From Ramlibacter lithotrophicus (GTDB lineage: Bacteria; Pseudomonadota; Gammaproteobacteria; Burkholderiales; Burkholderiaceae_C): a stretch of DNA of 64,000 nucleotides. The stretch covers positions 248,001-312,000 of the forward strand of contig NZ_VTOX01000004.1 in NCBI RefSeq assembly GCF_012184415.1, read 5' to 3'. A program made the translations under genes and the position numbers. This document shows, one piece after another, positions 4,700 through 24,120 of this stretch; the first letter of the stretch is position 1, and each line of letters begins with the position of its first letter. The notes below the pieces were generated by a model. The model was given only the letters and a program-made list of their open reading frames with translations, ran no database searches and was not told the origin of the DNA.

Positions 4700-5950
4700 A
4701 TGCTACTCGCCTTCCAGGCACATGTCACCCTCTCTGTGGAGGATGGGCGCGATGCTACGGTGGGCGATATGGACCCAGAGAAGGAAACGGTCAGCTACGT
4801 GGGAGAGACGGCCGGCAGGCTCCCGCATAAGGTGTTCGGCATCCGCCAAGCCGACCGGGCTTTTCACATGCACATCATCGGAAAGACCGGCACCGGGAAG
4901 ACGACGCTTCTGGAGAATCTCCTGCGCCAGGACATCGATGCCGGCCGCGGCCTCACGCTCATCGATCCTCACGGTGACTTGGCCGAGAGGATCTCAGGCT
5001 ACGCGAAGGCATCCGGCCGCAGCGACCTGATCTACCTCGATGCCGCCGATCCCGAGGCGCCGTACGGCTACAACCCGCTCAAACGCATCGCTGACCACTA
5101 CATCCCGCTTGCCGTCTCCGGGCTCCTGGAGACATTCAAGAAGCGCTTCGCAGACGCGTGGGGTGTCCGCATGGAGCACGTCTTGAGAAACGCGCTCTAT
5201 GCGGTTCTGGATACCGGAGGGGGCACGCTCCCGGACATCCTCAAGCTCCTCGCCGACAAGGACCACCGGAAGGATCTCGCCAAACGCATCCGAAACGAGA
5301 CGGTGCGCGAGTTCTGGCAGAAGGAATTTCCGAACTATTCCGACCGGTACCGCGTCGAGTCCCTGGCTCCCATCCAAAACAAGTTGGGCGCATTCCTGGC
5401 CGACCCGCGCGTTCGCCGGCTTCTGACAGAGGCGCCCCAGGAACTGTCATTCAGACGAATCATGGACCAAGGGGGCGTGCTCATCGTGAACCTGGCCCGC
5501 GGAAAGCTCGGCGAGGACAGCTCCTCGCTTCTTGGGGCGCTCTTTGTGACGAGCGTCGCGCTCGCTGCCTATTCCCGGGCAAGCATGCCGGAGGCAAAGC
5601 GCCTGACCCACTACCTCTACGCCGACGAGTTCCAAAGCTTCACGACTACTGCCGTCGCCGACATGATCTCCGAGCTGCGCAAGTATGGTCTCCGGCTGGT
5701 CGTGGCCCACCAGCACTTCGACCAGCTGGAAGACGCGGTGAAGCACGCGATCCTCGGGAACGCCGGCACGCTCATACGCTTTCGCGTCGGCGCCGAGGAC
5801 GCGAAGCTCATCTCGCGCGAGTTCGCCGGCCTCGTCCCGGCGGAAGACCTAGTCACCTTGCCGAACTACACGGTCTATCTGCGTCTCATGATCGACGGCG
5901 AACCTTCAACGGCATTTCGGGCAAGGACGTTGTCCCCACAGCCTTCATGA
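4700..5950 (+). CDS. TraG/TraD-type conjugative coupling ATPase (short form)
   Basis: 416-residue P-loop ATPase of the VirD4/TraM-recognition group. The Walker A GKTGTGKT is at about 61-68 and [12 protein letters not shown], the Walker-B-type strand of this family, at about 88. A second acidic strand [10 protein letters not shown] (about 300) is followed by [19 protein letters not shown], the motif shared with TraG/TraD C-terminal domains. No transmembrane segments are visible, unlike full VirD4 proteins. ATG 4700 is assumed; an internal ATG at 4769 (MDPEKETV) is also possible because the Shine-Dalgarno for 4700 is poorly spaced. Followed by radC after 89 nt on the same strand. Likely part of the DNA-transfer or element-maintenance machinery. 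Confidence 0.82.
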
Positions 5951-6039
5951 AAAGTGCCGAGGAGGCACAAAGTTGCTCCTACTGCAGGACCTGCTACCTT
6001 GAGAAACTGACAGCGGTTGTTCTTCACACAGGAGCTGTC

Positions 6040-6606
6040 ATGGAAGACATTGAAAGAATGTCTTCGCGTGACCTCCTGGCGGAGCTCATAGGCGAAGACG
6101 AAGCAGAGAGGATCTACACCGGGTCGCTTCTGAAGCTGGTGGACTTCGGTCGCCCACGTCGCGAGTTGCGAACGATGTTCGTGGCTCGCGAGCTGTGGGA
6201 GCGTATCTACCGCCAGGACCTGACCGAGCGGGAAGTGTTCGCGTCACCGGAGGCTGTGAAAGGCTTTCTGTCGACGATCTACGTGCAGAAACCGCACGAG
6301 GTCTTCATGGTTCTTTTTCTCGATGCGCAGAACCGCCTCATCGTTGCGGAGGAAATGTTCCGCGGCACACTGACCCAGACAAGCGTGTACCCGCGAGAGG
6401 TCGTGATTCGAGCCCTGGAGCATCGTGCTGCCGCGGTGATCTTGTCGCACAACCATCCGAGTGGCACCACGCAGCCAAGCCGTGCCGACGAAGCGCTGAC
6501 GCAGACGCTCAAATCGGCGCTGGCGCTCGTTGACGTGCGGGTGCTTGATCACGTGATATGGGCGGCCGGTGAATCGGTCAGCCTTGCTGAACGCGGACTC
6601 CTCTAA
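6040..6606 (+). CDS. radC: RadC/JAB-domain protein
   Basis: 188 residues with the JAB1/MPN+ metal-binding motif [15 protein letters not shown] (His137, His139, Asp150), the hallmark of the RadC family. Start at ATG 6040 with GGAGCT 9-4 nt upstream. The N-terminal UPF0758 helix-hairpin-helix part is replaced by a different about 70-residue segment, as in many copies on mobile elements. The biochemical role of RadC proteins is unsettled; they are common beside integrative elements and phage-type defence genes. Downstream is a strong hairpin terminator shared with the convergent operon. Confidence 0.88.
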
Positions 6607-6631
6607 AGCCACCCCATTGGGGGTGGCTTTT
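6605..6631. terminator. bidirectional intrinsic terminator
   Basis: Inverted repeat AAAGCCACCCC / GGGGTGGCTTT with a short ATTG loop, followed by T on the plus strand and preceded by A residues, so it can terminate in both directions. It separates radC (+) from the CYTH-ended operon (-). Confidence 0.85.
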
Positions 6632-6656
6632 CTCCGAGCCGACGTGATGCCACGTA

Positions 6657-7175
6657 TTAGCGTTCAGAGTTTGGTAGCAGATCAAGATAGGCGCCCTCGA
6701 GAAGCTGGGACTGGTGAATACCCAGACGTTCCAGCAGCCGGTACGCTTCCTGTACGCCGGTGGGACTAGGCTCCCCCTTGGCGAGTACGACTTCAAGCTC
6801 AACGAAGTGACCGAGACCCTCAACTCGGTCCAGGTGCACGCGCGTTCTTCCCACCAGGAACAGGGTGCGCAGTTTCCTGATCCGACCCGCCTCACCGTAC
6901 GCCGACGAAAGGGCCTCCCGCAGCGATTCCGGAGAACTCGTGGGGGATAGGACGTAAGCGGACTCTTTTGGCCCCTTGACGTCTGCACGGCGATAAAAAA
7001 TTAGCTCACCGGTTCCATCTGCAAAGGTGCGGATCTTCAGTCGTCCCGATCTGCACTGGAAGAAAATGTCATCCTGATGAATCTCGCTTGGTCCATCAGT
7101 TGCAATGGCGGCAACTTTGGGGAATACCTCGCTAATATCTGGGACGCGCGCTTTGATTTCAACGTTGCGTTGCAC
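6657..7175 (-). CDS. CYTH-domain protein (class IV adenylate cyclase-like)
   Basis: 172 residues. Begins MQRNVEIKARV, the variant ExK signature of CYTH triphosphate-tunnel proteins, followed by alternating charged beta strands (GRLKIRTFADGTGELIFYRR; RTRVHLDRVEGLGHFVELEV) that line the tunnel. Family members hydrolyse or cyclise nucleoside or other triphosphates with divalent metals; the exact substrate cannot be read here. It is the last gene of a six-gene minus-strand operon, 33 nt after the second permease. In that context it might supply a nucleotide signal, hydrolyse a triphosphate, or modify a product, but all of that is inference. Full length for the family. Confidence 0.85.
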   Translation of the reverse strand: MQRNVEIKARVPDISEVFPKVAAIATDGPSEIHQDDIFFQCRSGRLKIRTFADGTGELIFYRRADVKGPKESAYVLSPTSSPESLREALSSAYGEAGRIRKLRTLFLVGRTRVHLDRVEGLGHFVELEVVLAKGEPSPTGVQEAYRLLERLGIHQSQLLEGAYLDLLPNSER

Positions 7176-7208
7176 GGCCGATTACTCGACGAATTGCGCA
7201 AAAATGAA

Positions 7209-7928
7209 TCATGAATTCTGACGATGAGTACGGGAACTCATCGGATGCTTGCCAAGAAGCTGGAAGAGTGTCGCGAACAACACAAGGTACGCGAGTAAGG
7301 CTAAACTTATGAGCGTCGGGGAAAATAGGAATTGTTCTTTCCCGCGCACAAGCAACGTGCCGAGGTTCAGATCTGTTCTGTTGCCGACGCCCAACAGGCC
7401 TATGGCTCCGTCTACCGCGATGCCGCTCCCGACAATCTGTAACGCTAGCGGTCGCAAGAGCGCCGTGCTATTTGGCAAGATATGCCGAAACACAATGCCC
7501 ATCTTCGATACGCCGAGGCATCGGGCTGCAACTACGAAATCAAGACGACTGATGCGATTTAGCTCCGTCATGACAAGCCGAGTCACGGACGGTGTAGCGA
7601 CGATGGCGAAGGCCAATAGCGGAACTAGGTGCCGAGGCTGAATAACCACGACGACTACAACTAGCACCCACAGGAGGGATGGAATGGCGTCGAAAAGGTC
7701 GGCGACAAAGCGAACCCCGCGCTCGAAAGATTTCCCCTCAAGGACGAACGCCGCCAAAGAGAGGAGTATTGCGACGCCGACGACAACCACCACGATCGCC
7801 ACACCTTTGATGCTAGAGAGGGCCAGCGCCTGCAGCGTGGTGACGCCAATACTTCGCCCAAATTCATCGCTACCGGGGACGAGCAGCGCCAGCAAGAACG
7901 TCAGCCAAAGACCGGCGGTAACCCGCAT
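7209..7928 (-). CDS. ABC transporter permease, DppC/OppC type
   Basis: 239-residue integral membrane protein with about five to six hydrophobic spans. The cytoplasmic loop DFVVAARCLGVSKMGIVFRHILPN is the EAA-type motif of peptide/nickel transporter permeases that docks onto the ABC ATPase. The start ATG at 7928 follows the stop of the preceding permease by one base (TGACATG), typical of translational coupling; a start at 7970 inside the previous gene is less likely. Usual DppC proteins are about 280-300 residues, so the cytoplasmic N-terminus is short here. No ATPase gene follows; a CYTH gene does. Confidence 0.85.
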   Translation of the reverse strand: MRVTAGLWLTFLLALLVPGSDEFGRSIGVTTLQALALSSIKGVAIVVVVVGVAILLSLAAFVLEGKSFERGVRFVADLFDAIPSLLWVLVVVVVVIQPRHLVPLLAFAIVATPSVTRLVMTELNRISRLDFVVAARCLGVSKMGIVFRHILPNSTALLRPLALQIVGSGIAVDGAIGLLGVGNRTDLNLGTLLVRGKEQFLFSPTLISLALLAYLVLFATLFQLLGKHPMSSRTHRQNS

Positions 7929-7929
7929 G

Positions 7930-8769
7930 TCACTCAGGGAATTGAGCTCGAACCACTCGAGCTGTGACATGTACGCCGGCTACAACGATCGCATAAAACA
8001 CGACTAGGCCGAGCGCAAGATCGACATCGACCCGCTTTATCGCGCGTGCGGTCAATGACCCCAGCCCGCCTATTCCGACAAGCACCTCGACAAACAGGAG
8101 GGATGCGAATAGAGCTAGCGTCGCATTGTGTAGGGAGGGCAAGAGCTGATACAGCAGATTCTTGAGCAAGCGCTGCCGCACGCGCGTGGTCGAAGCGCCA
8201 AGCGCAAAATGCATGCGAACATGCTCGCTCCGAAGGTTTTCCTCCGTGATTCTGTAAGCTTGAGCACTCAGGAGCGCCAGCGGCGGTACCGCTAAAGCAA
8301 CCGAGGCGACCACGGTTGGGGCTGTCAGTAACGGTGCGACCGATAGAGAAAGAATCACCAGGAGTGAGATCGCGACATACGGGGGCAGGAAATTGACGTA
8401 GTTGGCAAGCAGTTCGCCATATCTGTCCGGCACTCCTTTGAAGCCGACCAACCAAACGCCGGCGGCGATCAGTACCGTGGCGACAGCCAGATGAGGAGCA
8501 CTTATAAGCGCGGCGTCAAGGATCTGCTCGCGCACCGGCAAATTATCTAGCGACCGCCCAAGGTCACCATGAATAAGATTGGCGAACTGAGTCGCATAGG
8601 AATTTGCATGGCTCAGGCGCCACTGCGCGAGCGCCTCTTGACTCCCAGCGTAAATTCCCAATCCTGAAAAGGAGGAGTCTGGAAGGACGGCGAGAAGGAA
8701 ATATACCAGGCCGTGAGCCGAGAAAACCAGCAAAATTGCCAGCAAACTCTCGCGAACCAGGATCTTCAC
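7930..8769 (-). CDS. ABC transporter permease, DppB/OppB type
   Basis: 279 residues with an N-terminal span (LAILLVFSAHGLVYFLLAVL), a periplasmic segment and a cluster of C-terminal spans. The loop EHVRMHFALGASTTRVRQRLLKNLLYQLLP matches the EAA docking motif in position though its sequence is divergent. DppB proteins are usually about 310-340 residues, so this copy is slightly short. The start overlaps the solute-binding protein stop by 4 nt (ATGA). With the adjacent DppC-type gene it would form a heterodimeric peptide-type importer channel that needs an ATPase from elsewhere. Confidence 0.84.
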   Translation of the reverse strand: MKILVRESLLAILLVFSAHGLVYFLLAVLPDSSFSGLGIYAGSQEALAQWRLSHANSYATQFANLIHGDLGRSLDNLPVREQILDAALISAPHLAVATVLIAAGVWLVGFKGVPDRYGELLANYVNFLPPYVAISLLVILSLSVAPLLTAPTVVASVALAVPPLALLSAQAYRITEENLRSEHVRMHFALGASTTRVRQRLLKNLLYQLLPSLHNATLALFASLLFVEVLVGIGGLGSLTARAIKRVDVDLALGLVVFYAIVVAGVHVTARVVRAQFPE

Positions 8770-10241
8770 TTGAGGCCTATTTCTTCGTAACTGGTCTGGC
8801 CTGCTGGTGAAAGCCGGAGTCCGGTGACGTTCTTCGAATTGAGGACGAGCTTGTTCTCACGAACAACACCGATCCAATTGCCCTCGTCCCGAATCCGAGC
8901 AAGGGTCTCACGGAGCTTCTGAGTATCCATCGGACTTGCCGCCTCAGTTCCTGGTAGCGGTTTTCCGAAGGCAACAAAGGGCGATGCAGGGTTGAAGAAC
9001 GACGTCCAAAAGACCGGTGCTTTAAGAGTCGCCTCGATAACGACGCTTGCAAGGTCGAAGTCGTGCTTCACCAAGCTGCTGATGAGCAGGCCCTTATCGA
9101 CGCCCTTGTAGTCAATTTCGATCGCCCCAATCTCTTTGGGCAGAGTTGCGGCAATGAGGTCCGAAAACGCGTCGCTCTCGCTGATTATCGTCAGCTTCAT
9201 CTTGGGAAGCTGACTTACATCGACCGCTGTAGAAGGGTCGATGGTCGTGCCGTCAACAATATATGGCGCTGTGTGGGGGTTTGCAAGCCCCAATGAAATA
9301 CTCGCCACCTTGCGACGGTCAATTGCACTCGAAAGAGCTCGTTTGAACGTTGCAATTTGCTGCGAATTCAGTCCTTTCTTCGCGAGCTGTTCTTCTCCAA
9401 CTATGAGTACCCGCAGCTTGTCCGTGGTCGCGCTCTTCAGGTACGCGTCGGCCTCATTCCTGTCGATGTCGAGCGACTTAATGAGATTTGGGCTATTCAG
9501 TTCGAGAACGTTCAGTTCGCCGGACTTGAACTTGGTCGCCGCAATGGCATCGTCAGGAACATAGTTGAAGACAATAGTCTCCGCTCTTGCCGGAAGGGGG
9601 GCACCGGCGCGGGATTGCAGCACAACGCGGCTGTCGGGGCGCACCTCCGCCAACCGGAACGCGCCGGCGCCAGGCACATTGCCGTATTCCGCTGGAACTG
9701 CCCCTTTCTTGACAACCCACCCGGCCGGTCCTGACAGCGCTTCGAGAAGCCAGGGGGCCGGAGCACTCTCTTCCACCTCGATCGACGGTCCGACCGCTCG
9801 AATACCGGTACATTTCACCTCTTTGCTACCTGGTGATACTTCATGCTTGATCGACGCTAGAGACCAGGAATACAGGGAAGCGGGTTGCATTGCCTGACAG
9901 AGCGAGGCGGTAACGTCTTCGGGGGTGATCGGTGTGCCGTCGTTGAAAGTCTTGTTCTGCTTCAATGAGAAACGATGCACCGAGCCAGATCTTTCCCATC
10001 TTTCTGCAACGCCTGGGTGGACTGTGCCGTCTTGATCAACCCTGATAAGTCCGAGGTGAAGTAGGGTCGCGACGCGTCGAGATTCGGTATCTGCCAGCTT
10101 AGATGGAGTCAATGAGAGAGCGAACGATTCCAGCCGCAAACTGATCGCCTGCTCGCTTGCCGATTGATTTCTGCTCAGGAGAGAGTATGAGGCCGCGCCC
10201 ACGAGAACCGCGAGAGCAGCGATGGCAGCATACTTCTTCAT
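8766..10241 (-). CDS. extracytoplasmic solute-binding protein (SBP_bac_5, peptide type)
   Basis: 491 residues. The N-terminus MKKYAAIAALAVLVGAASYSLL is a signal or signal-anchor without a lipobox cysteine. The family-5 landmarks are present: LLHLGLIRVDQDGTVHPGVAERWERS, then FSLKQNKTFNDGTPITPEDVTASL, the conserved block of Dpp/Opp/Nik binding proteins. The C-terminal half is divergent and ends right at the permease start (4-nt overlap). It probably captures a peptide or peptide-like ligand in the periplasm. Because a radical SAM gene sits directly upstream with a 4-nt overlap, the ligand might be a modified peptide; that is inference. The mixed G+C is lower than in the chromosomal half. Confidence 0.86.
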   Translation of the reverse strand: MKKYAAIAALAVLVGAASYSLLSRNQSASEQAISLRLESFALSLTPSKLADTESRRVATLLHLGLIRVDQDGTVHPGVAERWERSGSVHRFSLKQNKTFNDGTPITPEDVTASLCQAMQPASLYSWSLASIKHEVSPGSKEVKCTGIRAVGPSIEVEESAPAPWLLEALSGPAGWVVKKGAVPAEYGNVPGAGAFRLAEVRPDSRVVLQSRAGAPLPARAETIVFNYVPDDAIAATKFKSGELNVLELNSPNLIKSLDIDRNEADAYLKSATTDKLRVLIVGEEQLAKKGLNSQQIATFKRALSSAIDRRKVASISLGLANPHTAPYIVDGTTIDPSTAVDVSQLPKMKLTIISESDAFSDLIAATLPKEIGAIEIDYKGVDKGLLISSLVKHDFDLASVVIEATLKAPVFWTSFFNPASPFVAFGKPLPGTEAASPMDTQKLRETLARIRDEGNWIGVVRENKLVLNSKNVTGLRLSPAGQTSYEEIGLK

Positions 10242-11176
10242 GCAAGTGCCCTCTCAAGAAAAGCGTCGCCCGATTCCTCCGCCGGTACCCATCGGGGCAT
10301 GTCGTGGTCGATTTCCCCGAGGATCTCCGCGCCCACGGATGCTCTCCCGCTCGGTGAGAAGCGAATCGTTCTCTCGAGTCGCTTAAGCCGTCGAATGGCG
10401 AGCTTATGAAGAGGGCTGACCTTGTCCGGAAGTTCGTCTTTAATGAGCGAGAACTCGTCGTCGATAACGAGCTTCACTCCGGCTGCGTGGGCCTCGCTCT
10501 GAAGCCGGTAAAGCGTAGAGAAGATGTCGGGTATCGTATCTACCGTCCCTTTCGCCCGAGGGCTCAGCATTGGGCCAACAACCCATTTTTTCGCGCCACG
10601 GTTGGCAAGCCATTGAGCCATCCCGTCTAAGTAGTGGTGGCGATGCGGCTGCAACATGCTGGCAACGATCATCTTGTTTGCCAGCTCAGGCAGCTTCAAC
10701 GCTTTATCGAGACCTGAAACGGCCTTCGCATGTGCACCAAGCGCGCCGCGCCCCAAATCGTGATAGTGCCCGCTAGGGCTATCGACGCTTACCGTTACTG
10801 CTCCCACCTCGAGCGAAATTAGTTCATGGAGCCGCGTCTCCAGATATGTTCCATTCGTCACGAAGGACGACGAGAGACCATGGGCGCGTGCTTCATCGAG
10901 AATGGAAAAGGTGTACTCCCAGGACTCAGGGAGGAGCGGCTCATAGCCTTGAATTGCCACACGGAGATGTTCATATCTGTCGGCTGCGGCGGTGATTATC
11001 TTCCGGTAATCGCTTGGTGAAAGCCATGCCTCTGCCTTCGATACTTCATTGCGAGCCTTGATAAAGCAAGCGGGGCAGTTCAAATTACACTTGGAAGCCG
11101 GCACAACAAAAGTAATGTTGTACGTAAGCGCAGCCTCGTGTTCGGACAGGACAGGAAGTGCTGCTACAACTGCCAT
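10238..11176 (-). CDS. radical SAM enzyme
   Basis: 312 residues. The CxxxCxxC cluster-binding motif is at Cys30, Cys34 and Cys37 (ASKCNLNCPACFIKARNE). The GGEP-like strand is represented by VAIQGYEPLLPESW, and TVSVDSPSG is the usual SAM-binding strand region. There are no cysteines in the C-terminal third, so a SPASM or twitch auxiliary cluster domain is absent. The fold and size suit a small radical SAM enzyme acting on a peptide, sugar or nucleotide; substrate unknown. It overlaps the solute-binding protein by 4 nt and starts 18 nt after the unknown 442-residue gene, so it sits inside a tight operon. Family call firm; reaction unknown. Confidence 0.9.
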   Translation of the reverse strand: MAVVAALPVLSEHEAALTYNITFVVPASKCNLNCPACFIKARNEVSKAEAWLSPSDYRKIITAAADRYEHLRVAIQGYEPLLPESWEYTFSILDEARAHGLSSSFVTNGTYLETRLHELISLEVGAVTVSVDSPSGHYHDLGRGALGAHAKAVSGLDKALKLPELANKMIVASMLQPHRHHYLDGMAQWLANRGAKKWVVGPMLSPRAKGTVDTIPDIFSTLYRLQSEAHAAGVKLVIDDEFSLIKDELPDKVSPLHKLAIRRLKRLERTIRFSPSGRASVGAEILGEIDHDMPRWVPAEESGDAFLERALA

Positions 11177-11194
11177 AAATTCCCCTATAGTCGA

Positions 11195-12523
11195 TTAAAG
11201 CGACATTAGCTCATCGAGCTTAAGAATGTCCCAATTCAAGTACCTCAATTGCTTCTCAGCCTCGGAAGCAGGTTCAAGACCAGCACTCCGATGCAAGGCA
11301 TCCGACACCAGTCCCAATGATGAGGTAAGGTGTATCGGCTGTGATTCGATCAAAACGGTTTCCAAGGTCGAGAAAGTGTCGTGTTCACTAGGAAAATAAA
11401 AATAACGGAAGCCTTTCCCGTCAGCACCCGCCAAGAGTGTCTGTGGGAAGTGTCTTAGAACCTGACCCCGCGGTCCCGTTAATAGCGGCTTCCACTCATC
11501 AGGCATCGCTTCGGGTAGAGGGTCGACCTTCTCAAGTCGGGAACTTGCGGAAAGCGCTTGGACGTACGGACTGTCTCTGAATAACTCCTCCCGCTTAACG
11601 GCAAGAGTGGGTGAGTTCTTGACTACGAATCTACATCGATCGTGAGCGTCCTTCACTAGCTCTTTAAAGTCACGCGCATGCGCATGCAAAAATGCGGCAA
11701 AGCCGGCTCGAAGATCTGCGAAATTCCAATGCGCCAGCCAGTCGGAGGAGTCTTCGTTGTGTTGGAGTCCGTAGTCGCACACCCATACGCAGATCGTCCT
11801 GCGGTGAGGCTCGCGTTGCCTGGTTTTTTGTAGAAGGACAGACAGCGCGCCGCCCTCACCAGCAAATAATGCCAGCGATGTCCGGACACCTATAGCCAAT
11901 GAGGAAAGCTTGCCCTGCCCGTCTTTGACCATTTCCGTAAGTGCATCGTCACGGCCAACGCCGCGGATCGAACGATAGCGGCTGAGAACATATATAAAAT
12001 CAAATTCGGCAAGGCTATTTGCAAAGTCATCCCAACCTCCTTCTTGGACCGGTAGTCTGCTGACATGGAAGCCCTTCTCGGCCTTCGCGAACTGAAAGAT
12101 TAGGTCAATGATTTCTGATGCACAAGCAGAAGGGTCGCTGCAGCCCTTTATGGGCTTGCGCTTTTCCAGGCCGGACGAAGCCTCGTCGTAGTGCCAGTAC
12201 GTGAACATCGAAGTCGCCAGTGCACGTCCGATTTCAGGCGTAAACAGCACTCGACCATTCATGATGTGGGAAATATTTTTCGCCGCCTGCTTCTCTTCCA
12301 GGAACAGATACGTGTTTCGGGAGCGGCCGACCAGCCTCTGCTCAGGTGCGTCGTCCTTCGTCCACTCACCGCCGGCCCCGAGCCAAGCATCAAGCAAGAT
12401 TCTTGGCGAATGCCGCCAATAACCTTGCCGGCATTGCTCGTGGAGCTGCGCACACAGGTGGCGAAAAGCGGCGCCAGTGGAGAGTTGGGCGGGCGCGTCC
12501 ACGCCAGTAGTTGCGTGTTTCAT
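11195..12523 (-). CDS. unknown protein, first gene of the radical SAM/ABC operon
   Basis: 442 residues from ATG 12523 (MKHATTGVDAP); the frame is open further upstream to 12811, but that part overlaps a promoter, a hairpin terminator and a -10 element and is not credible coding. The product is soluble, with mixed alpha/beta composition and no motif I recognise. Notable stretches are RSRNTYLFLEEKQAAKNISH, FDFIYVLSRYRSIRG and RTICVWVCDYGLQHNEDSSDW. The only Shine-Dalgarno-like bases touch the ATG, while a TATACT -10 ends 8 nt before it, so translation may be leaderless. An alternative start is 12568. It is co-directional and 18 nt from the radical SAM gene, so probably a partner of that enzyme or a substrate-recognition protein. 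Confidence 0.72.
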   Translation of the reverse strand: MKHATTGVDAPAQLSTGAAFRHLCAQLHEQCRQGYWRHSPRILLDAWLGAGGEWTKDDAPEQRLVGRSRNTYLFLEEKQAAKNISHIMNGRVLFTPEIGRALATSMFTYWHYDEASSGLEKRKPIKGCSDPSACASEIIDLIFQFAKAEKGFHVSRLPVQEGGWDDFANSLAEFDFIYVLSRYRSIRGVGRDDALTEMVKDGQGKLSSLAIGVRTSLALFAGEGGALSVLLQKTRQREPHRRTICVWVCDYGLQHNEDSSDWLAHWNFADLRAGFAAFLHAHARDFKELVKDAHDRCRFVVKNSPTLAVKREELFRDSPYVQALSASSRLEKVDPLPEAMPDEWKPLLTGPRGQVLRHFPQTLLAGADGKGFRYFYFPSEHDTFSTLETVLIESQPIHLTSSLGLVSDALHRSAGLEPASEAEKQLRYLNWDILKLDELMSL

Positions 12524-12531
12524 TCCTGACC

Positions 12532-12562
12532 AGTATAGCTCCCCACAGTGATGGGTCGGCAA
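12532..12562 (-). promoter_or_regulatory. putative promoter of the six-gene operon
   Basis: On the minus strand TTGCCG (12557-12562) and TATACT (12532-12537) are separated by 19 bp. The -10 is 5/6 to consensus. A transcription start 6-8 nt downstream would fall at the ATG of the 442-residue gene, implying a leaderless mRNA. The spacing is longer than ideal. Confidence 0.4.
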
Positions 12563-12632
12563 ATCCATCAGAGTGATGACGTGATTGTGGCCGGACAAAA
12601 AAGACTTGACATCACTGATGCGTAAGCTAAAG

Positions 12633-12706
12633 TAAAAGGGCCGACAGCGGTTGCACACTGTCGGCCCCGATCGGCAGAGGACGCCGACCAGCCTTTGCCA
12701 AGGCCA
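12633..12706 (-). ncRNA. putative small RNA A (paralogue of 13086-13160)
   Basis: About 74-nt transcript predicted from a promoter at 12712-12741 to the T-run at 12634-12637. Three hairpins can be drawn in order: GCCTT..AAGGC; GGTCGGC..GCCGATC with a pyrimidine loop containing CCTC; and a perfect 10-bp terminator stem GGGCCGACAG/CTGTCGGCCC followed by TTTT. The same architecture with diverged stems occurs 450 bp upstream (unit B), and base changes in the stems are largely paired, which supports RNA structure. The exposed CCTC is complementary to Shine-Dalgarno sequences, so a role as a translation-blocking RNA is possible. It lies between the operon promoter and the 52-codon frame. Confidence 0.55.
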
Positions 12707-12711
12707 TACGT

Positions 12712-12741
12712 ACTGTAGCATTTTAGCAACAGATCTGTCAA
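12712..12741 (-). promoter_or_regulatory. putative promoter of small RNA A
   Basis: Minus strand: perfect TTGACA (12736-12741), 18-bp spacer, TACAGT (12712-12717). Its predicted start lies just before the first hairpin of RNA A. Confidence 0.55.
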
Positions 12742-12822
12742 GCCTTCCAGGTTGTCCTCCGCCGCCCCGGCACAGGCGCTGGCGCCTCACTGCTCGGCCG
12801 AGCTTGAGCAAAGGAGTTGCGG

Positions 12823-12981
12823 ATGGAAACCGAGAAATGCACTGATGTCGAGTTGGACCAAGAGCGGAGCAGAACTCGAGCTCAGCCAGTAAATGACGAT
12901 AGGTACCCGCCTATCGCGTTGTATCGAGATCCGGCGTGGTACCGAGAGCTCGATGACACAACTCTCGGCGAAGCGGACTGA
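12823..12981 (+). CDS. putative 52-aa peptide between the two small RNAs
   Basis: ATG 12823 is preceded by a strong Shine-Dalgarno AAGGAG (12811-12816) at 6-nt spacing; TGA at 12979-12981. The peptide is highly charged with one Cys at position 6 (METEKCTDVELDQ), a central RYPPIALYRDPAWYREL segment rich in Tyr, Trp and Pro, and an acidic tail ending LGEAD. It has no signal peptide. The length, acidic N-terminal half and aromatic core-like segment would suit a precursor peptide for the divergent radical SAM operon, but no homologue is recognised and a competing minus-strand frame covers the same bases. Treat as a candidate small gene. Confidence 0.4.
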   Translation: METEKCTDVELDQERSRTRAQPVNDDRYPPIALYRDPAWYRELDDTTLGEAD

Positions 12982-13085
12982 AAGTCTCCAACTCGCGAGG
13001 GCCCGCGCCGAAGCCCAAGTCGCGGCGCTAACCCGATGGTAGTCAGCGACACGTACGAGGGGAGCACCAATCAACACGTTCTAAA

Positions 13086-13160
13086 CAAAAAGGGACCACG
13101 AACGCCGCAAACGTTCGTGATCCCGATCGGTGGAGGGTCCGCCGACCAGCTCATGAGCTA
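13086..13160 (-). ncRNA. putative small RNA B (paralogue of 12633-12706)
   Basis: About 75-nt unit with the same order of elements as RNA A: an AGCTCATGAGCT hairpin, a GGTCGG..CCGATC stem enclosing ACCCTCCA (an exact CCTCC, the anti-Shine-Dalgarno core), and a terminator stem CACGAACG/CGTTCGTG closed by GGGA/TCCC and followed by TTTTT. Sequence identity with A is clear in the middle stem (CGATCGG...GCCGACCAGC on the plus strand), whereas the terminator stem differs but keeps pairing. No open reading frame fits the transcript. Confidence 0.55.
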
Positions 13161-13165
13161 TGTAG

Positions 13166-13194
13166 AGTCTACCATGTAAGCGCTCACTCTGCAA
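13166..13194 (-). promoter_or_regulatory. putative promoter of small RNA B
   Basis: Minus strand: TTGCAG (13189-13194), 17-bp spacer, TAGACT (13166-13171), placed as in unit A relative to the first hairpin. Confidence 0.5.
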
Positions 13195-13302
13195 GCGACT
13201 GATCCGGACTTTCCTCCTCTCAGACCACTTTGTGTTAGTGGCCGCTCACAGGAGCGCCAGGGAAGAGCTCGCCCGAAAACGAGCTACTGAAGGAGAGAAG
13301 CT

Positions 13303-14832
13303 ATGGAATTCCACCGCAAACCGCCTTCGAAGGTGGCGGAAGTGTCGGCCGCCATCTGGGCGTTCCTGAATAAGACTGCTATCACAGGAAGTGGCAGCGA
13401 TCCGCAACTCCTCGAGCAGCACGGCTCCGCCCAGTGCAAGAGCAAAGCAGCGTCGGTGGGCTGGGCGAATCTCGCCGCCTCATCTCTCGGGGCGATCGGC
13501 GCCTATATCAAGACATACATGATCGTGCCCGGGCCGCTCGCAGCCGTGGCCGCGAGCATCACCGCCGCGATCTATTTCATCCTCATCTTCAATCTGGAGA
13601 AGATGCTCGCCGCCGGAATCAGCGCCTTCTGGCCAGCGTCAACCAAACTGAAGGCACTCGCGGGCCGCGCAAGTGTGACCATGCTATGCACCGCGGTGCT
13701 CCAGGCAGTGCCGTGGACCCTGATCGCCTTCGGCAACCAGTTGGAGGTGAGGTTGGCGAAGTTCGAGATGGACGCCCGCCAGGAAGCGAAGGGCAAAATC
13801 GAGGCGCTGCATGACATCAAGGCTGTCGACGGTAAGACGGCGAAGATGGTCCATGCCGTCAAGGAAGCGGCCGAGCAGGTACGGGTCCTGCCCGAGAGCG
13901 TTGTCGACGTTCAGCAAATCGCGGAGAAGTGCGACAAGGACGCCGACGCCCTCTTCGCCAGCAATAAGCGGAAGGCGGCCTCCCTCCAGGCTCGTCTCCC
14001 CGCGCTGGCGAACATTGAATTCTCGAACACGGCGGTCCTCGCCCAGAAGCTGGAAGCGAAACGCGCCCGGGAGGAAATCGCTGCACGCCTCACCCGTCTT
14101 GCCGACGATGTGGCGGCAAAACGCGCCGAATGCCGTAACAACCACGCGCAGGCCGCCGAAGCCAAGAACCGATACATAACCGAAGCCACGGCCAAGCTGC
14201 ACAAGGTCGAGGCAGAACTCGATGGCCAAAAGCGCGCCGCTGGCGAAGTCGCGAAGGCAGTCAGTGCGGATGTGGCCAAAGCTGACGAAGCCGCTCGCCG
14301 GGGGTACGTCACGAACAGTGCTGCGGAGATCAAGGCCGCCGTAGCCCTTCTCAGCGAGGAGCCCTACGCACGTATCAAGGCATTGTTCATCTACTTCTTC
14401 TTCGTCGTCGTGGACATCGCCTGCATATCGCTCAAATTGCTGGCCAAGCCCGGCTTGTACGACTTCGCGCTGCGCAAGCGCGACGAGCTGGCCCGTATCG
14501 GCGCCGATCAGACCATTCGGGAGGCCGAGCGCGAGGACATGCTGCAGGCGGTGCAAAGCGCGGCCAAGGTGAAGGGCGTCATCGAGTTCCATGCCCAGGA
14601 TGCTGGTGCCGCGTTTGCCTGCCTTGAGCGCCTTGCTCACGACGAAAAGGTGCGCGCGGCTGAACAAACGCACGACATCAGAATGGCGAGGGCACAGCTC
14701 GCAGAGATTGAAACGTTGGCGGCGCAAGTTGAGGCCGTGCTGCAGCGAGTAAAGGGCAACCACGCGCTCGCCGTGCGCCTGAACGAGGTTCTCGCAATCC
14801 TCCGCGGCACCGCAACTCCCAAGGCAGCCTGA
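13303..14832 (+). CDS. DUF4407-like membrane/coiled-coil protein
   Basis: 509 residues. The N-terminal part has three hydrophobic stretches (LAASSLGAIGAYIKTYMIV, AAVAASITAAIYFILIFNLE and SVTMLCTAVLQAVPWTLIAF). A long Ala/Glu/Lys-rich coiled coil follows (about 150-345), then another membrane segment (ALFIYFFFVVVDIACISL) and a C-terminal helix. This TM-coiled coil-TM layout is that of DUF4407 proteins. The start ATG 13303 has AAGGAGAG upstream. A PIN-domain gene follows after 54 nt on the same strand, so the pair probably acts together; a membrane sensor plus nuclease arrangement is plausible for defence. Function not established. Confidence 0.7.
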   Translation: MEFHRKPPSKVAEVSAAIWAFLNKTAITGSGSDPQLLEQHGSAQCKSKAASVGWANLAASSLGAIGAYIKTYMIVPGPLAAVAASITAAIYFILIFNLEKMLAAGISAFWPASTKLKALAGRASVTMLCTAVLQAVPWTLIAFGNQLEVRLAKFEMDARQEAKGKIEALHDIKAVDGKTAKMVHAVKEAAEQVRVLPESVVDVQQIAEKCDKDADALFASNKRKAASLQARLPALANIEFSNTAVLAQKLEAKRAREEIAARLTRLADDVAAKRAECRNNHAQAAEAKNRYITEATAKLHKVEAELDGQKRAAGEVAKAVSADVAKADEAARRGYVTNSAAEIKAAVALLSEEPYARIKALFIYFFFVVVDIACISLKLLAKPGLYDFALRKRDELARIGADQTIREAEREDMLQAVQSAAKVKGVIEFHAQDAGAAFACLERLAHDEKVRAAEQTHDIRMARAQLAEIETLAAQVEAVLQRVKGNHALAVRLNEVLAILRGTATPKAA

Positions 14833-17338: not shown

Positions 17339-18190
17339 ATGCTGGGACAGGGACGTGCTGCTGTGGAGAGGGTCTACTTCTCGAGCCGTACGGGTCTGAA
17401 TCCGAACGCCGCAGGCTTTCCACTCCCCGAAGTCATTGAAGCCTTTGTCCGAGTCTTCAATCGGCTGCAGGAAGACGGCTATTTCGATCAGGCGTTCGGC
17501 GACTACCACGACATGAACAGCGTCGGTGAAGTCCGCGACATCGGCTTCGAGGTATTTAAGTCACTGCGCAAAAAGCAACTCTGGCCCATCTCGGAGAACT
17601 GGACGCGATACAAGGAAGACGATCTTTTCGACATGATCGAGTTTCTCTTCCAGTATGTCTCGAAAGAAGACCGCCGCACGCTGCCGCGGGCGCGATGGGA
17701 GGTTGCTGAAGTGACGTTCGACCGGGCTGCCGGACAGCGTCACTATCGCAAGTGCATCAACGAAGTGCTTGACCTGTATGTCGAGCGCTTTGAACTGGAC
17801 CAGAACGGCTATGTCGTTAAGAAGACGGAGGCCGGCTTTGAGCCGATATTCAGCGCCTCTCTTCCAACAGAGGATGCTGTCCTCAAGGAGCGCGTGAACG
17901 CTGCAGTTCTTCAATTCCGCAGGCATCGCGCAACTCGGCACGAACGGCGCCAAGCCGTCATCGAACTGGCTGGAGTGCTGGAATCACTTCGCCCCGCGAT
18001 GAAGGACCTGGTGGCGAGCAAAGACGAGCGGGATCTCTTTAATATCGCCAACAACTTCGGACTAAGGCATCAGAATGCCTTGCAGCGAGAGGACTATGAC
18101 CCACTCTGGCTCAACTGGATCTTCTACAACTATCTCGCGACGATTCATCTGGTCTTGAGGAAACAGGAGAATCTCCAGCGGCAGGGTTGA
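17339..18190 (+). CDS. AbiJ-like/abortive-infection-type protein
   Basis: 283 residues, soluble. The C-terminal segment NNFGLRHQNALQREDYDPLW then NWIFYNYLATIHLVLRKQ resembles the end of AbiJ/HEPN-like phage-resistance proteins (an RH.N motif followed by YDPLW..W and a long helix). The N-terminal half (PEVIEAFVRVFNRLQEDGYF, RDIGFEVFKSLRKKQLWPI) is helical. The ATG touches the TGA of the HTH gene, so expression is coupled to a putative regulator, as in toxin-antitoxin or defence pairs. The resemblance is from memory of motif order and is moderate. Confidence 0.5.
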   Translation: MLGQGRAAVERVYFSSRTGLNPNAAGFPLPEVIEAFVRVFNRLQEDGYFDQAFGDYHDMNSVGEVRDIGFEVFKSLRKKQLWPISENWTRYKEDDLFDMIEFLFQYVSKEDRRTLPRARWEVAEVTFDRAAGQRHYRKCINEVLDLYVERFELDQNGYVVKKTEAGFEPIFSASLPTEDAVLKERVNAAVLQFRRHRATRHERRQAVIELAGVLESLRPAMKDLVASKDERDLFNIANNFGLRHQNALQREDYDPLWLNWIFYNYLATIHLVLRKQENLQRQG

Positions 18191-19805: not shown

Positions 19806-19989
19806 CCCGCTCCGGGCCGCTCGCGGCCAACCTATCGACCAGCGACCGGATGTCTGAGACCCCCGTGTCGCTCAGTCGTGGTGTCGCATACTTCACTCAA
19901 CCAGCAACTCGCATCAAGGTATATTGATAACCGCAACCCTTGCTAGGTTACCCGACTGCACAAGGCAACAGCACGGCGCTAGGAGCTAT

Positions 19990-22506
19990 ATGGTTGACTT
20001 CGCGAAACTACGTACGACAGCACCAAAGCCCAAGTCGACAGATCCTGTAGAGATCTTTCGACGACTGCCGAAGCCTGCGGGTATCAACGACCTGTACACA
20101 AGCCAGGCGGAGGTGCTTCAGCAGTGGTACCCGAGGCGGGGTGACAAAGACATCGTATTAAAGCTGCACACGGGAGGCGGAAAGACGTTGGTTGGTCTGC
20201 TGATGGCTCAGTCGACGATTAATGAAACCTCTGAGCCAGTCCTGTTTTTGGCGCCAACGACGCAGCTGGTTAACCAAACGCTGGAGAAAGCGAAGGGCCT
20301 CGGCATTCCCGCTGTGCCATATGAGCGCAAGAAGCCCCTAAACGACGCGTTTGTCAACGGAAGCGCCATTATGGTCGCGACCTATAAGGCACTCTTCAAT
20401 GGGCAGAGTAAGTTCAAGGTTCGAGGCAACGGACAAGCGCAAAAAGTCGGTGCCATCATTCTCGATGACGCCCACACCGCGTTTTCCGAGGTTCGCGACG
20501 CGTTTACGTTAGAAGTTAGCTCACAGGCGGATCGAGAACGCTACCAAACGCTCACGGGCCTCTTCCGGAACGCTTTCAAAGATTCTGACCGTCTCGGCAC
20601 GTTCGACGACGTCCTCTCTGGCGAGGATTTCGCGATCCTCGAGGTTCCGTATTGGGCTTGGTTCGAACAACTTGGTGCCGTGCAGGAGATCCTCAAAGGT
20701 GCGGGGAGAGATACGTACGCCTTCAGCTGGCCGCTGCTACGAGACAATCTTCATCTCTGTCACGCCTTAATCAGTCGAAGCGCGTTTACCGTGACGCCCA
20801 TACTCCCGCTCGTTGACCTCTTCCCGACGTTTGTGGAAGCGCCTCGACGCATATACATGTCGGCCACGATTGCCGACGACAGTGAGATCATTCGCACTTT
20901 CGACGCCAACAGGGAGTCAGTTCGCAACGCCCTTAGCTCGCGCTCTCTCGCCGGCATAAGCGAACGGATGATCTTGATTCCGGATTTGATGCCGTTTGCA
21001 TTCAAGGTTAGAGATGTGAACGCGAAGCTTCTCAAATGGGCTTCAGGCGACAAAGGTCGCGGGGCGATTCTCTTGGCGCCGTCTGATAAGGCAGCAAGTC
21101 AATGGGCTGATGTCGGAAGCGTAGCAATAGGATCAGAGGCGGTTGAAAAATGTGTGCTGGCACTCCAACAGAGAGCGACAAACGGGCCGGTAATCTTCTC
21201 AAATCGCTACGACGGCATCGATCTCCCCGGCGATTCGTGCCGGCTGCTAGTCATGAGCGGGCTTCCAGCTGGCACATCAAACTATGAGTTCTTTCGAGCA
21301 TCCGCACTTTACGGGGGTGCGAGCATCACGCGGATGCTCGCACAAAGAATCGAGCAGGGCATCGGGCGAGGCGCGCGCGGCGCCGGCGACCATTGTGTCG
21401 TAATCCTTTCTGGATCCGACTTGGCAGCATGGATCGCGAAAGACGCGAACTTCCGCTTCCTTACGAGCGCGACGCGTGCCCAAATGAAGATGGGCTCAGT
21501 CGTCAGCGAAGCGATTGAGAACGTCGATGATATCTTCAGGACGATTGAACGGAGTCTTGACCGGGATTCAGATTGGGTTGAATACCACGCCGAGACACTG
21601 GCTGAACTTGTTGAGGACGATAAACCGGATGAGACGGGGTACCACCTCGCGTCTGCGGAGCGGAAAGCGTTCAATAATTGGCGGGATGGGCACCCCGAGC
21701 AGGCAATTGCGAAGCTCACGAAAGTTCTGGATGAAGTTGCCGGGGTGGACTTGCAGAGTAAAGGCTGGCTGGTGCAGTTTGCCGCAAGAATTGCGGCGAA
21801 GTGGGGCAATTCTGAACGGGCGGAGGAGCTTCAGCAAGATGCGTACGCTAAGAACAGGAACCTCTTGCGGCCGAAGATTCAACCACCATACCGCCAGCTA
21901 CGCAGTCCTGGCCGACAGGCTACCGCGATCGCAGCTCAGATCGGAAGCTACAGGATCCGCAAGGGGTTCATGCAAACGTTTGAGCAAGTCACCTCAAACC
22001 TGCATGGCGGCGCATCGGCGAATCAGTTTGAGCAAGCACTTTCGGAGCTCGGGAAGATGGTCGGATTGTCCGCAGAGCGCCACGACATCGGGGGTGTCGG
22101 ACCGGACGTGTTGTGGCTCCTTCCTGACATGACCGGGCTAGTGATAGAAGCAAAGAGCCGTAAGGATAAAAAGAATGCCTTTACGAAGGAGCAGCATGGG
22201 CAGTTGCTCGTAGCGGCAGAATGGTTTGGGAAGAACTATCCTGGCTATCGTGCCATCAGGGTATCGGTTCACCCTACGAATGTTGCTACAGAGCCTGCGG
22301 CAGCAGATTCTTCCTACGTACTCACCTATGATCGGCTGCAAGCGATGGTCGGCGACGCGCGCGCCCTATTGGTGCGACTTTGTGAGTCGCAACTGAAGCC
22401 ATCTGATTTGGAGACTGAATGTGCACAGCTCCTCGACACTTCCCCCATTCGGGCTGACCGCTTGCCCGCAAGCTACCTTCAGCCTTTCGTTGTTAAGGCC
22501 GAGTAA
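19990..22506 (+). CDS. superfamily 2 helicase fused to PD-(D/E)xK nuclease-like domain
   Basis: 838 residues from ATG 19990 (AGGAG 9-5 nt upstream). DEAD/DEAH-type helicase motifs in order: HTGGGKT (residues 60-66), APTTQLV, LDDAH (158-162), MSAT and QGIGRGARG (motif VI). After a helical linker the C-terminal domain has GGVGPDVLWLLPDMTGLVIE followed by AKS, i.e. the D...ExK core of a restriction-type nuclease, then a Gln-rich helix. Helicase-nuclease single-chain proteins of this layout are typical of phage-defence islands. It is a single-gene unit. Predicted to unwind and cut invading DNA; trigger unknown. Confidence 0.8.
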   Translation: MVDFAKLRTTAPKPKSTDPVEIFRRLPKPAGINDLYTSQAEVLQQWYPRRGDKDIVLKLHTGGGKTLVGLLMAQSTINETSEPVLFLAPTTQLVNQTLEKAKGLGIPAVPYERKKPLNDAFVNGSAIMVATYKALFNGQSKFKVRGNGQAQKVGAIILDDAHTAFSEVRDAFTLEVSSQADRERYQTLTGLFRNAFKDSDRLGTFDDVLSGEDFAILEVPYWAWFEQLGAVQEILKGAGRDTYAFSWPLLRDNLHLCHALISRSAFTVTPILPLVDLFPTFVEAPRRIYMSATIADDSEIIRTFDANRESVRNALSSRSLAGISERMILIPDLMPFAFKVRDVNAKLLKWASGDKGRGAILLAPSDKAASQWADVGSVAIGSEAVEKCVLALQQRATNGPVIFSNRYDGIDLPGDSCRLLVMSGLPAGTSNYEFFRASALYGGASITRMLAQRIEQGIGRGARGAGDHCVVILSGSDLAAWIAKDANFRFLTSATRAQMKMGSVVSEAIENVDDIFRTIERSLDRDSDWVEYHAETLAELVEDDKPDETGYHLASAERKAFNNWRDGHPEQAIAKLTKVLDEVAGVDLQSKGWLVQFAARIAAKWGNSERAEELQQDAYAKNRNLLRPKIQPPYRQLRSPGRQATAIAAQIGSYRIRKGFMQTFEQVTSNLHGGASANQFEQALSELGKMVGLSAERHDIGGVGPDVLWLLPDMTGLVIEAKSRKDKKNAFTKEQHGQLLVAAEWFGKNYPGYRAIRVSVHPTNVATEPAAADSSYVLTYDRLQAMVGDARALLVRLCESQLKPSDLETECAQLLDTSPIRADRLPASYLQPFVVKAE

Positions 22507-22581: not shown

Positions 22582-24120
22582 CTAATCCTTCGCTTTCATG
22601 TCTCGGGGACATGGGGATGTGGGGACGTTGTCAGAGTCCATGAGGAGCTTCACCCAGTACTCGGTAGAAGTTCGAAAGTCGTCCTGACGAAGGGCACATT
22701 CAAGAGTTTTCGCTTGATCTAGGACTTCCTGGAACTGGTCAGAGCACCGTAATTCAACGCTTTTCTGTCGCGCATGCAGGTTCGATTTCATGCGCTTGGC
22801 CATCTCCATCGCTACAGCCGGTGAACTCCGAAAAGCCTGTTGTTGAAAGGCTTTCGTGAGTTCGAGGTAATGTTCGGCGAGCGGCGGAATCGGAACACCG
22901 TTTGTCTCGAGTTGCGCTATCTCGCCGGCAATTCGGGCCTTGGCATCGAGGAGCTCGTTCTTCTTCGACAAGAAGGTCTCCCGATCTAGCAGGCCATCAA
23001 TGACCGCATCTGCCGCCGCGCTCAACCGCTCCTCGAGCTTTCCGCGCTTGACAAGAAGCATCTGCATCGTCGCGTCCTTCGTTCGTGAGCGTTCTGCGAT
23101 TGCTTCGCGAAGCACCGGCTCAAGTCCCGGACAGGTCTGCATAAACAGGCTCAAACGGCGCAAGCCCAGTTCCACGGCCTCATGCGCGCGTTCCTCACGA
23201 AAAGAGGTGCCGGCGCACGCCTTTGTATGGCACCTGTAGTAGATGTGCCCTTTCTGTCGTTCACCAGCGAGCCATTGGCCGCACGAGTCACAGCGGATCG
23301 CACGCCGATAGAGAAAGAAATGCTTGCCTGGCTTTCGTCGGAAGCGCCCCGCCAACGCCGCCTGGACCTCATCGAAGAGCGCCTGATCCACGAGCGGCTC
23401 GTGAATGCCGGGGAACGCTTCACCGGAGGACCGAAGTACAAGCTTTCCAACATAGAAGGGATTGCTCAAGATCACACCCAGGGCGTTCTTCCCAGCCGGC
23501 GCCTTCAGCCCACGCGCGTGGAGTTCCTTTCGAAGTGCCTTGAGCGTGTAGTCGCCCGTCGCGTACAGCTTGAAGGCGGTCCGAATGAGCGGACCTTTGA
23601 TCGGATCGATCGTCTTCGCCTGACCTTTGCCGTTATTCACGTACCCGACTGGTGCCCCAAACGGCCACAAGCCCTGCTTGAGCCGGCCGACGATGCCTTT
23701 CTTCGTTTCCTCGCGCAGATTCCTGATGTAGTCGGCGGCAACCGCCGCGAGCATGTCCCCCGTAAGTCGTCCGCCGCGAGTGGTGAGATCAAGGGCGTCG
23801 TGCACGAAGTAGACCTTGACGCCGAGCTCGATCAGATCGGTGATGTCGCTCCATTCACGGAGATTGCGTGCACCGCGGTCGATCTTGTGGAGGATAAGAC
23901 CCTCGGCCGCGCCGGCACGCAACTCCTTCATCATCTGCGCAAATTGCCGACGGCCTTGTTTGGCGGCCGTCTCCATCTCGCAGAAGAGCTTCACTATCTC
24001 CACACCCTTGAGGCGTGCCAGTCGCTCTGCGTCACTGCGTTGCACTTCAAGAGACACCCCTTCGGTGCCTTGCCTGATGGTCGATGTTCTGATGTACGCG
24101 TAGAACCCTCTTTGCCTCAT
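22582..24120 (-). CDS. large serine recombinase (nested element)
   Basis: 512 residues. The N-terminal resolvase domain has the catalytic Ser13 in YIRTSTIRQG and KIDRGARNL (conserved Arg-rich helix), followed by the Recombinase domain (TRGGRLTGDMLAAVAADYIRN is the domain junction) and a zinc ribbon CDSCGQWL...YYRCHTKAC. A coiled coil and tail follow. The start overlaps the stop of the small upstream gene (ATGA). The 3' end of the gene overlaps the left 23-bp inverted repeat at 22608-22630, so the gene sits inside a discrete unit that reaches 25744. It is distinct in sequence from the integrase at 29608. Confidence 0.88.
   Translation of the reverse strand: MRQRGFYAYIRTSTIRQGTEGVSLEVQRSDAERLARLKGVEIVKLFCEMETAAKQGRRQFAQMMKELRAGAAEGLILHKIDRGARNLREWSDITDLIELGVKVYFVHDALDLTTRGGRLTGDMLAAVAADYIRNLREETKKGIVGRLKQGLWPFGAPVGYVNNGKGQAKTIDPIKGPLIRTAFKLYATGDYTLKALRKELHARGLKAPAGKNALGVILSNPFYVGKLVLRSSGEAFPGIHEPLVDQALFDEVQAALAGRFRRKPGKHFFLYRRAIRCDSCGQWLAGERQKGHIYYRCHTKACAGTSFREERAHEAVELGLRRLSLFMQTCPGLEPVLREAIAERSRTKDATMQMLLVKRGKLEERLSAAADAVIDGLLDRETFLSKKNELLDAKARIAGEIAQLETNGVPIPPLAEHYLELTKAFQQQAFRSSPAVAMEMAKRMKSNLHARQKSVELRCSDQFQEVLDQAKTLECALRQDDFRTSTEYWVKLLMDSDNVPTSPCPRDMKAKD
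22608..22630. repeat. left arm of 23-bp inverted repeat
   Basis: GACATGGGGATG..GGGGACGTTG; its reverse complement matches 25722-25744 at 21 of 23 positions. It lies inside the 3' end of the serine recombinase gene. Confidence 0.75.

Follow-up and report, generated by a model that had tools for sequence, protein, structure and literature searches.

A six-gene operon-like cluster of Ramlibacter lithotrophicus with a likely core of an orphan protein and a radical SAM enzyme

Which of six neighbouring genes of Ramlibacter lithotrophicus, encoding an orphan protein (here called X), a radical S-adenosylmethionine (SAM) enzyme, three components of a peptide-type importer and a CYTH protein, belong together in function? 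The genes occupy positions 6657-12523 of a 64,000-nucleotide stretch (the window; contig NZ_VTOX01000004.1, positions 248,001 to 312,000), and an initial annotation had read them as one system carried by a mobile element. From comparisons across genomes we conclude that X and the radical SAM enzyme are the likely conserved core of this locus, to which the importer and the CYTH protein look like local additions. All six open reading frames (ORFs) are open, lie on the minus strand and are positioned as first described; together with the hairpin that follows them, they are:

11195-12523, minus strand: gene X, orphan protein of 442 aa, predicted to hold a helix-turn-helix-like segment at about residues 80-115, with an alpha/beta remainder in a poor model
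10238-11176, minus strand: radical SAM enzyme of 312 aa with the cluster motif CNLNCPAC, three cysteines in total and a viperin/BlsE/MoaA/SPASM-like core fold
8766-10241, minus strand: SBP_bac_5 solute-binding protein of 491 aa, by Pfam
7930-8769, minus strand: Dpp/OppB-type permease of 279 aa (permease B), by Pfam
7209-7970, minus strand: Dpp/OppC-type permease of 253 aa (permease C), alternative start at 7928, with an EAA-type ATPase-coupling loop by pattern
6657-7175, minus strand: CYTH (triphosphate tunnel) protein of 172 aa, by Pfam, under the cut-off for class IV adenylate cyclases
6605-6632, both strands: hairpin separating the operon from convergent radC, a possible bidirectional terminator

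These genes form a tightly packed operon-like cluster that is predicted to be one unit. X is followed by the radical SAM gene after 18 nt, 4-nt overlaps join the radical SAM gene to that of the solute-binding protein and the latter to permease B, permease C overlaps permease B by 41 nt if it starts at the ATG at 7970 or follows it after 1 nt if it starts at the in-frame ATG at 7928, and CYTH succeeds permease C after 33 nt. Moreover, the GC content is uniform over the six genes (0.540-0.565, versus 0.654-0.739 in 2-kb steps from 30 kb onward). Five domain assignments lie above the Pfam cut-offs (Radical_SAM 46 bits, SBP_bac_5 86, BPD_transp_1 43 and 54.6, CYTH 61.7), so that the initial description of six packed genes with these domains stands. 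The bidirectional terminator postulated at their end is retained in part: with z values of -5.2 and -4.1 the hairpin is strong on either strand, but the T tract that goes with it is short, especially on the operon strand, and the hairpin is absent from the output of a consensus terminator scan.

We turned to the company that X and the radical SAM enzyme keep in other genomes. The X family comprises at least four proteins including X at E ≤ 0.001 (protein database, 7,999 candidates scored), and a repeat search with the alignment of these four proteins (A1) returned the same four. The radical SAM enzyme has 177 relatives at E ≤ 1e-10 (3,480 candidates), of which P0006 is the closest among the 120 matches listed, at 68% identity. 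Because the longest contig listed for P0006 and for P0003, an X relative at 43% identity, is 20,850 bases in both cases, the two genes are probably linked on one contig. The radical SAM family was further found in two of 397 genomes of the order of genome G560 (E ≤ 1e-30; loci L031 and L032, of 19.5 and 19.9 kb); a family-level search of eight genomes led to the same two, and 165 genomes, apparently of that same order, contained none. Since the ChpT-type family carried by G560 was matched, among 14 control genomes, in Caulobacter only, both radical SAM-bearing genomes are presumably alphaproteobacterial. Their enzymes share 34% and 29% identity with the window enzyme over 271 and 231 columns, and in both loci the next large same-strand gene upstream encodes a protein of 431 or 437 aa that has no Pfam match at E ≤ 0.1. 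This gene is separated from the radical SAM gene by 2 nt in L032; in L031 the gap is about 390 nt long and encloses an 18-aa ORF. Alignment of A1 with the two upstream proteins by hhalign gave E-values of 0.0039 and 0.00033 as single comparisons, with scores of 32.1 and 37.6; the best of 51 control ORFs, taken from the same five loci, reached 24.4 and the best of 120 shuffled sequences 23.5. We consider these proteins probable distant homologues of X. It is this occurrence of X-like genes 5' of the radical SAM gene in two genomes, together with the probable linkage of P0003 and P0006, for which we regard the pair as the likely core. In L031, a LuxR/LuxI pair is located downstream of the radical SAM relative (L031:6579-8156).

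X itself is outside every family in the libraries searched, in line with the initial annotation, which recognised no family for the 442-residue protein: its one Pfam match is below threshold (E 0.26), and PADLOC, NCBIfam and PHROGs yielded no match at E ≤ 1. Within its order, X is present in one of 399 genomes, that is, in its own; no relatives were found in plasmids, in genome-contig scans or, by the A1 alignment, in viral contigs. The motif HxKxxxxD, which is catalytic in the phospholipase D superfamily, is absent from all four A1 sequences. Regulators of the Rgg/RRNPP type combine an N-terminal helix-turn-helix with a TPR-like C-terminal domain, and TPR families did not appear in the Pfam scans. 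The structure prediction proposed at the outset was carried out, but at a mean pLDDT (predicted local distance difference test) of 50.6 the model is too poor to be decisive. By eye, residues 80-115 or thereabouts, the piece kept in all comparisons, resemble a helix-turn-helix. In the X-like protein P0126, sub-threshold matches to a helix-turn-helix family in Pfam (residues 82-112, E 0.12) and to a CII-like activator family in PHROGs (residues 81-122, E 0.3) are overlapped by the segment that hhalign pairs with X (residues 95-171 of P0126 with 81-147 of X).

The radical SAM enzyme holds three cysteines in all, which are those of the CxxxCxxC cluster motif. In an alignment of 29 sequences, only three columns have a cysteine throughout; the next cysteine column is occupied in 20 sequences, the window enzyme not being among them, and it lacks the cysteines expected of an auxiliary cluster of the SPASM or twitch type. 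Like X, the enzyme is rare: it was found in one of 399 genomes of its order (E ≤ 1e-30) and in one of 398 genomes of its phylum (E ≤ 1e-40), its own genome both times. Elsewhere, plasmids yielded one match at 25.8% and phages one at 31.3% over 41%; in viral contigs the single protein matched nothing and the alignment gave one weak match at 23%. For P0007, P0125, P0126 and P0118, no plasmid matches were obtained.

The importer and CYTH genes have other surroundings. When all stop-to-stop frames of at least 50 aa were tested in nine loci, the radical SAM family was found in L003, L031 and L032 and CYTH in L018-L020 (three plasmids) and L033-L035 (three genomes), while at E 1e-3 X (by phmmer), the solute-binding protein and both permeases were without homologues in all nine. 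CYTH thus stands apart from the other five genes at all six of its wider loci. In L003, a Rhizobium plasmid, three radical SAM genes stand in a row (L003:5019-9971) with a CYTH-annotated gene nearby that fails to match the window CYTH at E 1e-3. Among 150 genomes of the host's order, six encode CYTH at E ≤ 1e-25, the host included; the remaining two of the five others, seen as 3.5-kb loci, likewise have CYTH alone. Plasmid-borne relatives of CYTH come from a cyanobacterium (64.7%), Comamonas (57.0%) and Arthrobacter (52.4%). The solute-binding protein reaches at most 26.6% identity with plasmid proteins among 20 matches listed of 704, and permease C no more than 34.6%, across roughly half of the protein, among 15 matches listed of 122. 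A fixed six-gene system was rejected for now on account of the solitary CYTH genes and of L031 and L032, which have neither importer nor CYTH homologues at E 1e-3. The full set turned up nowhere else that was searched; from the initial expectation that the neighbours are conserved together, the pairing of X with the radical SAM enzyme remains as probable, and a fixed six-gene set is unsupported.

These distributions agree with a reading that we hold to be a good possibility, if short of probable: only X and the radical SAM enzyme would cooperate, the importer would serve nutrient uptake and CYTH would be a mobile gene of its own, all being co-transcribed by chance or convenience. It would account for CYTH in a cyanobacterium, Comamonas, Arthrobacter and five other genomes of the order and for the absence of importer and CYTH from both other radical SAM loci, but less readily for the 4-nt overlaps that join the radical SAM enzyme, solute-binding protein and permease B, or for the even GC content.

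With its SBP_bac_5 protein and two BPD_transp_1 permeases, the importer set has the components of a Dpp/Opp transporter, and an ATPase gene is missing from the six. Because the host genome (5.26 Mb in 24 contigs) contains 22 oligo_HPY matches, many of them as neighbouring pairs, ATPases would be available for borrowing, and the importer may use a borrowed host ATPase. The genomic setting looks like an island, in agreement with the earlier view that the genes are carried by a mobile element. Two serine recombinases are encoded at 22582-24120 and 29608-31092 of the window, and the neighbourhood of the operon includes coupling-protein-like ATPases, radC, an IS66 remnant, a DUF4407 protein and a PIN protein; beyond the recombinases follow ammonium transporter and P-II genes, which were taken as host genes. 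The operon is therefore best understood as putative cargo of an integrative element. A helicase-like protein at 19924-22506 on the plus strand matches the defence candidate PDC-S28 (E 4.8e-280), and the ORF at 17339-18190, upstream of it, has a weak PDC-S32 match (E 7.7e-8).

Taken together, we tentatively propose, as an account that may well fail in one of its parts, a cargo operon built around the X-radical SAM core. The enzyme, carrying a single 4Fe-4S cluster, would form a 5'-deoxyadenosyl radical and thereby alter a small molecule, which may be a peptide, a nucleotide or a sugar-nucleotide. X would sense or answer to the product by means of its helix-turn-helix-like N-terminal segment and its alpha/beta C-terminal part. 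The importer, consisting of the binding protein and the two permeases and, on this view, gained in this lineage, would bring in the product or its precursor, powered by an Opp/Dpp-type ATPase pair of the host, and CYTH may hydrolyse a triphosphate or be a passenger.

Several results weigh against this proposal. The longest contigs of P0002 and P0004 (24,204 and 34,740 bases) are matched by no radical SAM enzyme among the 120 listed of 177, and L031 and L032 are devoid of the importer and CYTH. The hhalign probabilities for the X-like proteins are low (9-40%), and a hidden Markov model of A1 detects neither the 431- nor the 437-aa protein at E ≤ 1, for which reasons we grade their homology to X as distant and probable; in addition, the 51 control ORFs were picked greedily and some of their frames may be wrong. 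The helix-turn-helix hints are sub-threshold and come from P0126 alone, X itself having given none in Pfam or PHROGs. Finally, permease B fails the coupling-loop pattern that permease C matches.

Upstream of X, the minus strand carries further candidate elements, and a short ORF lies between two of them on the plus strand:

12532-12620, minus strand: possible promoter region of X, recognised by eye, with TATACT at 12537-12532 and three CATCA-type motifs
12620-12610, 12578-12566 and 12553-12542, minus strand: the CATCA-type motifs, by eye
12630-12741, minus strand: RNA-like unit A, with a promoter-like TTGACA-18-TACAGT site including TG, three predicted hairpins and a T tract
13085-13190, minus strand: RNA-like unit B, a paralogue of unit A with the same three-hairpin layout
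12823-12981, plus strand: ORF of 52 aa between units A and B with a good Shine-Dalgarno sequence, a possible small protein or precursor

The candidate promoter region of X is not among the results of a consensus promoter scan. Units A and B fold into three hairpins (z -6.1 and -5.5) and end in a T tract; a TG-extended -10-like element is visible in both by eye, and unit A has TTGACA at a spacing of 18 nt. A variable-gap pattern of their common core finds only these two units in the genome and nothing in viral contigs, and a rigid version finds unit B alone in the window, even with three mismatches (0 expected). An RNA model (R1) built from units A and B alone, with stricter filters in the genome search, likewise recovered only these two over 61 genomes, the host included; a search of 5900-13400 against Rfam was negative at E ≤ 1, and blastn of the unit A region hit no plasmids. 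At about 13200-13225, the minus strand resembles GAGGAAAGTCCGG, a conserved piece of RNase P RNA; as Rfam reports nothing there, the resemblance is probably due to chance.

The short ORF bears on the question whether the radical SAM enzyme might mature a ribosomally synthesized and post-translationally modified peptide (RiPP). According to this alternative, which we judge doubtful, the enzyme would modify a short ribosomal peptide, such as the product of the 52-aa ORF or of the 18-aa ORF in L031, which would then be imported as a signal. The 52-aa ORF has AAGGAG 6 nt before its ATG and was the sole hit in two window stretches scanned, and the 18-aa ORF with AAGGAGGT (L031:10555-10611, one of five hits in the L031 stretch) lies a short way 5' of the radical SAM gene; the fold matches of the enzyme to SuiB and SkfB and the peptide-type importer would fit as well. 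However, the two ORFs are unalike, that of the window is on the opposite strand and has no PHROG match at E ≤ 1, and L032 offers no such ORF, its three hits all being antisense. Because the window enzyme lacks auxiliary-cluster cysteines, the RiPP-like reading of the initial annotation is weakened in spite of short ORFs with good ribosome sites near the radical SAM gene in two of three loci; the relatives of the enzyme are less clear in this respect, with six cysteines in L031 and five in L032.

Equally doubtful is a viperin-like chemistry in which the enzyme would make a modified nucleoside triphosphate and CYTH would balance it or confer self-protection, in defence or signalling, since the enzyme scores 52.8 bits against NCBIfam viperin NF038283 (cut-off 180), the pVip profile of PADLOC matches residues 28-150 only, SuiB, SkfB and MoaA are equal or better matches by fold (scores of 22.6, 21.4 and 21.0), and CYTH occurs without the radical SAM enzyme as does the latter without CYTH. 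As X also has no PADLOC match, the earlier suggestion of a defence system finds no footing in family membership. An even bolder proposition, and in our view a quite improbable one, is that X stands at the head of a new regulator or effector family paired with a single-cluster radical SAM enzyme in a mobile Gram-negative make-import-sense circuit, where the product is the signal, the importer with its borrowed ATPase the receiver and X the switch, the two paired small RNAs contributing to the control.

For the proposed X-radical SAM core, the analysis yields a testable pair: an X family of at least four close members in the database searched and a radical SAM enzyme whose relatives in two remote genomes have a similar partner. 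If this pair does make and sense a modified small molecule, it would represent a new type of signal circuit on Gram-negative mobile DNA. Moreover, the evidence against CYTH as a member of a fixed six-gene system removes a misleading lead.

Narrow word searches of the open-access literature retrieved no paper that joins radical SAM with CYTH and phage defence, radical SAM with oligopeptide, permease and CYTH, or radical SAM with substrate-binding protein, DppB, an orphan and an ATPase. With pVip, the enzyme shares a radical SAM core of about 300 aa with a single cluster, the CxxxCxxC motif and a partial profile match, but it remains far under the NCBIfam viperin cut-off. BlsE, a cytosylglucuronate decarboxylase, is its top match both in Foldseek (E 1.9e-10) and by sequence in the PDB (E 7.2e-6), yet at 19% Foldseek identity and with 40.5 bits against an NCBIfam cut-off of 400. 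The importer resembles Dpp, Opp and Nik systems in its SBP_bac_5 protein and its B- and C-type permeases and differs from them in the missing ATPase; for the Opp system of Borrelia, a single ATPase pair alongside two permease pairs is described (PMC5736914). The CYTH protein is like triphosphate tunnel enzymes in exceeding the Pfam CYTH cut-off and unlike class IV adenylate cyclases (CyaB, TIGR00318) in scoring 46 bits against a cut-off of 57.95; many bacterial CYTH members are annotated as cyclases, and one that was characterised is reported to be an inorganic triphosphatase (PMC3440374). Finally, a review on streptococci describes Rgg/SHP - RaS-RiPP circuits, in which a regulator works with a radical SAM enzyme and Opp peptide import to make and answer to small peptides (PMC13361665). 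Compared with what is set out there, no Rgg/RRNPP domain was recognised for X in the libraries searched, a proven peptide is missing, the window enzyme is without auxiliary-cluster cysteines, the host is not a streptococcus, and the importer is encoded inside the operon without ATPases. What our locus has in common with the circuits so described is that a regulator candidate, a radical SAM enzyme and peptide-type import stand together.

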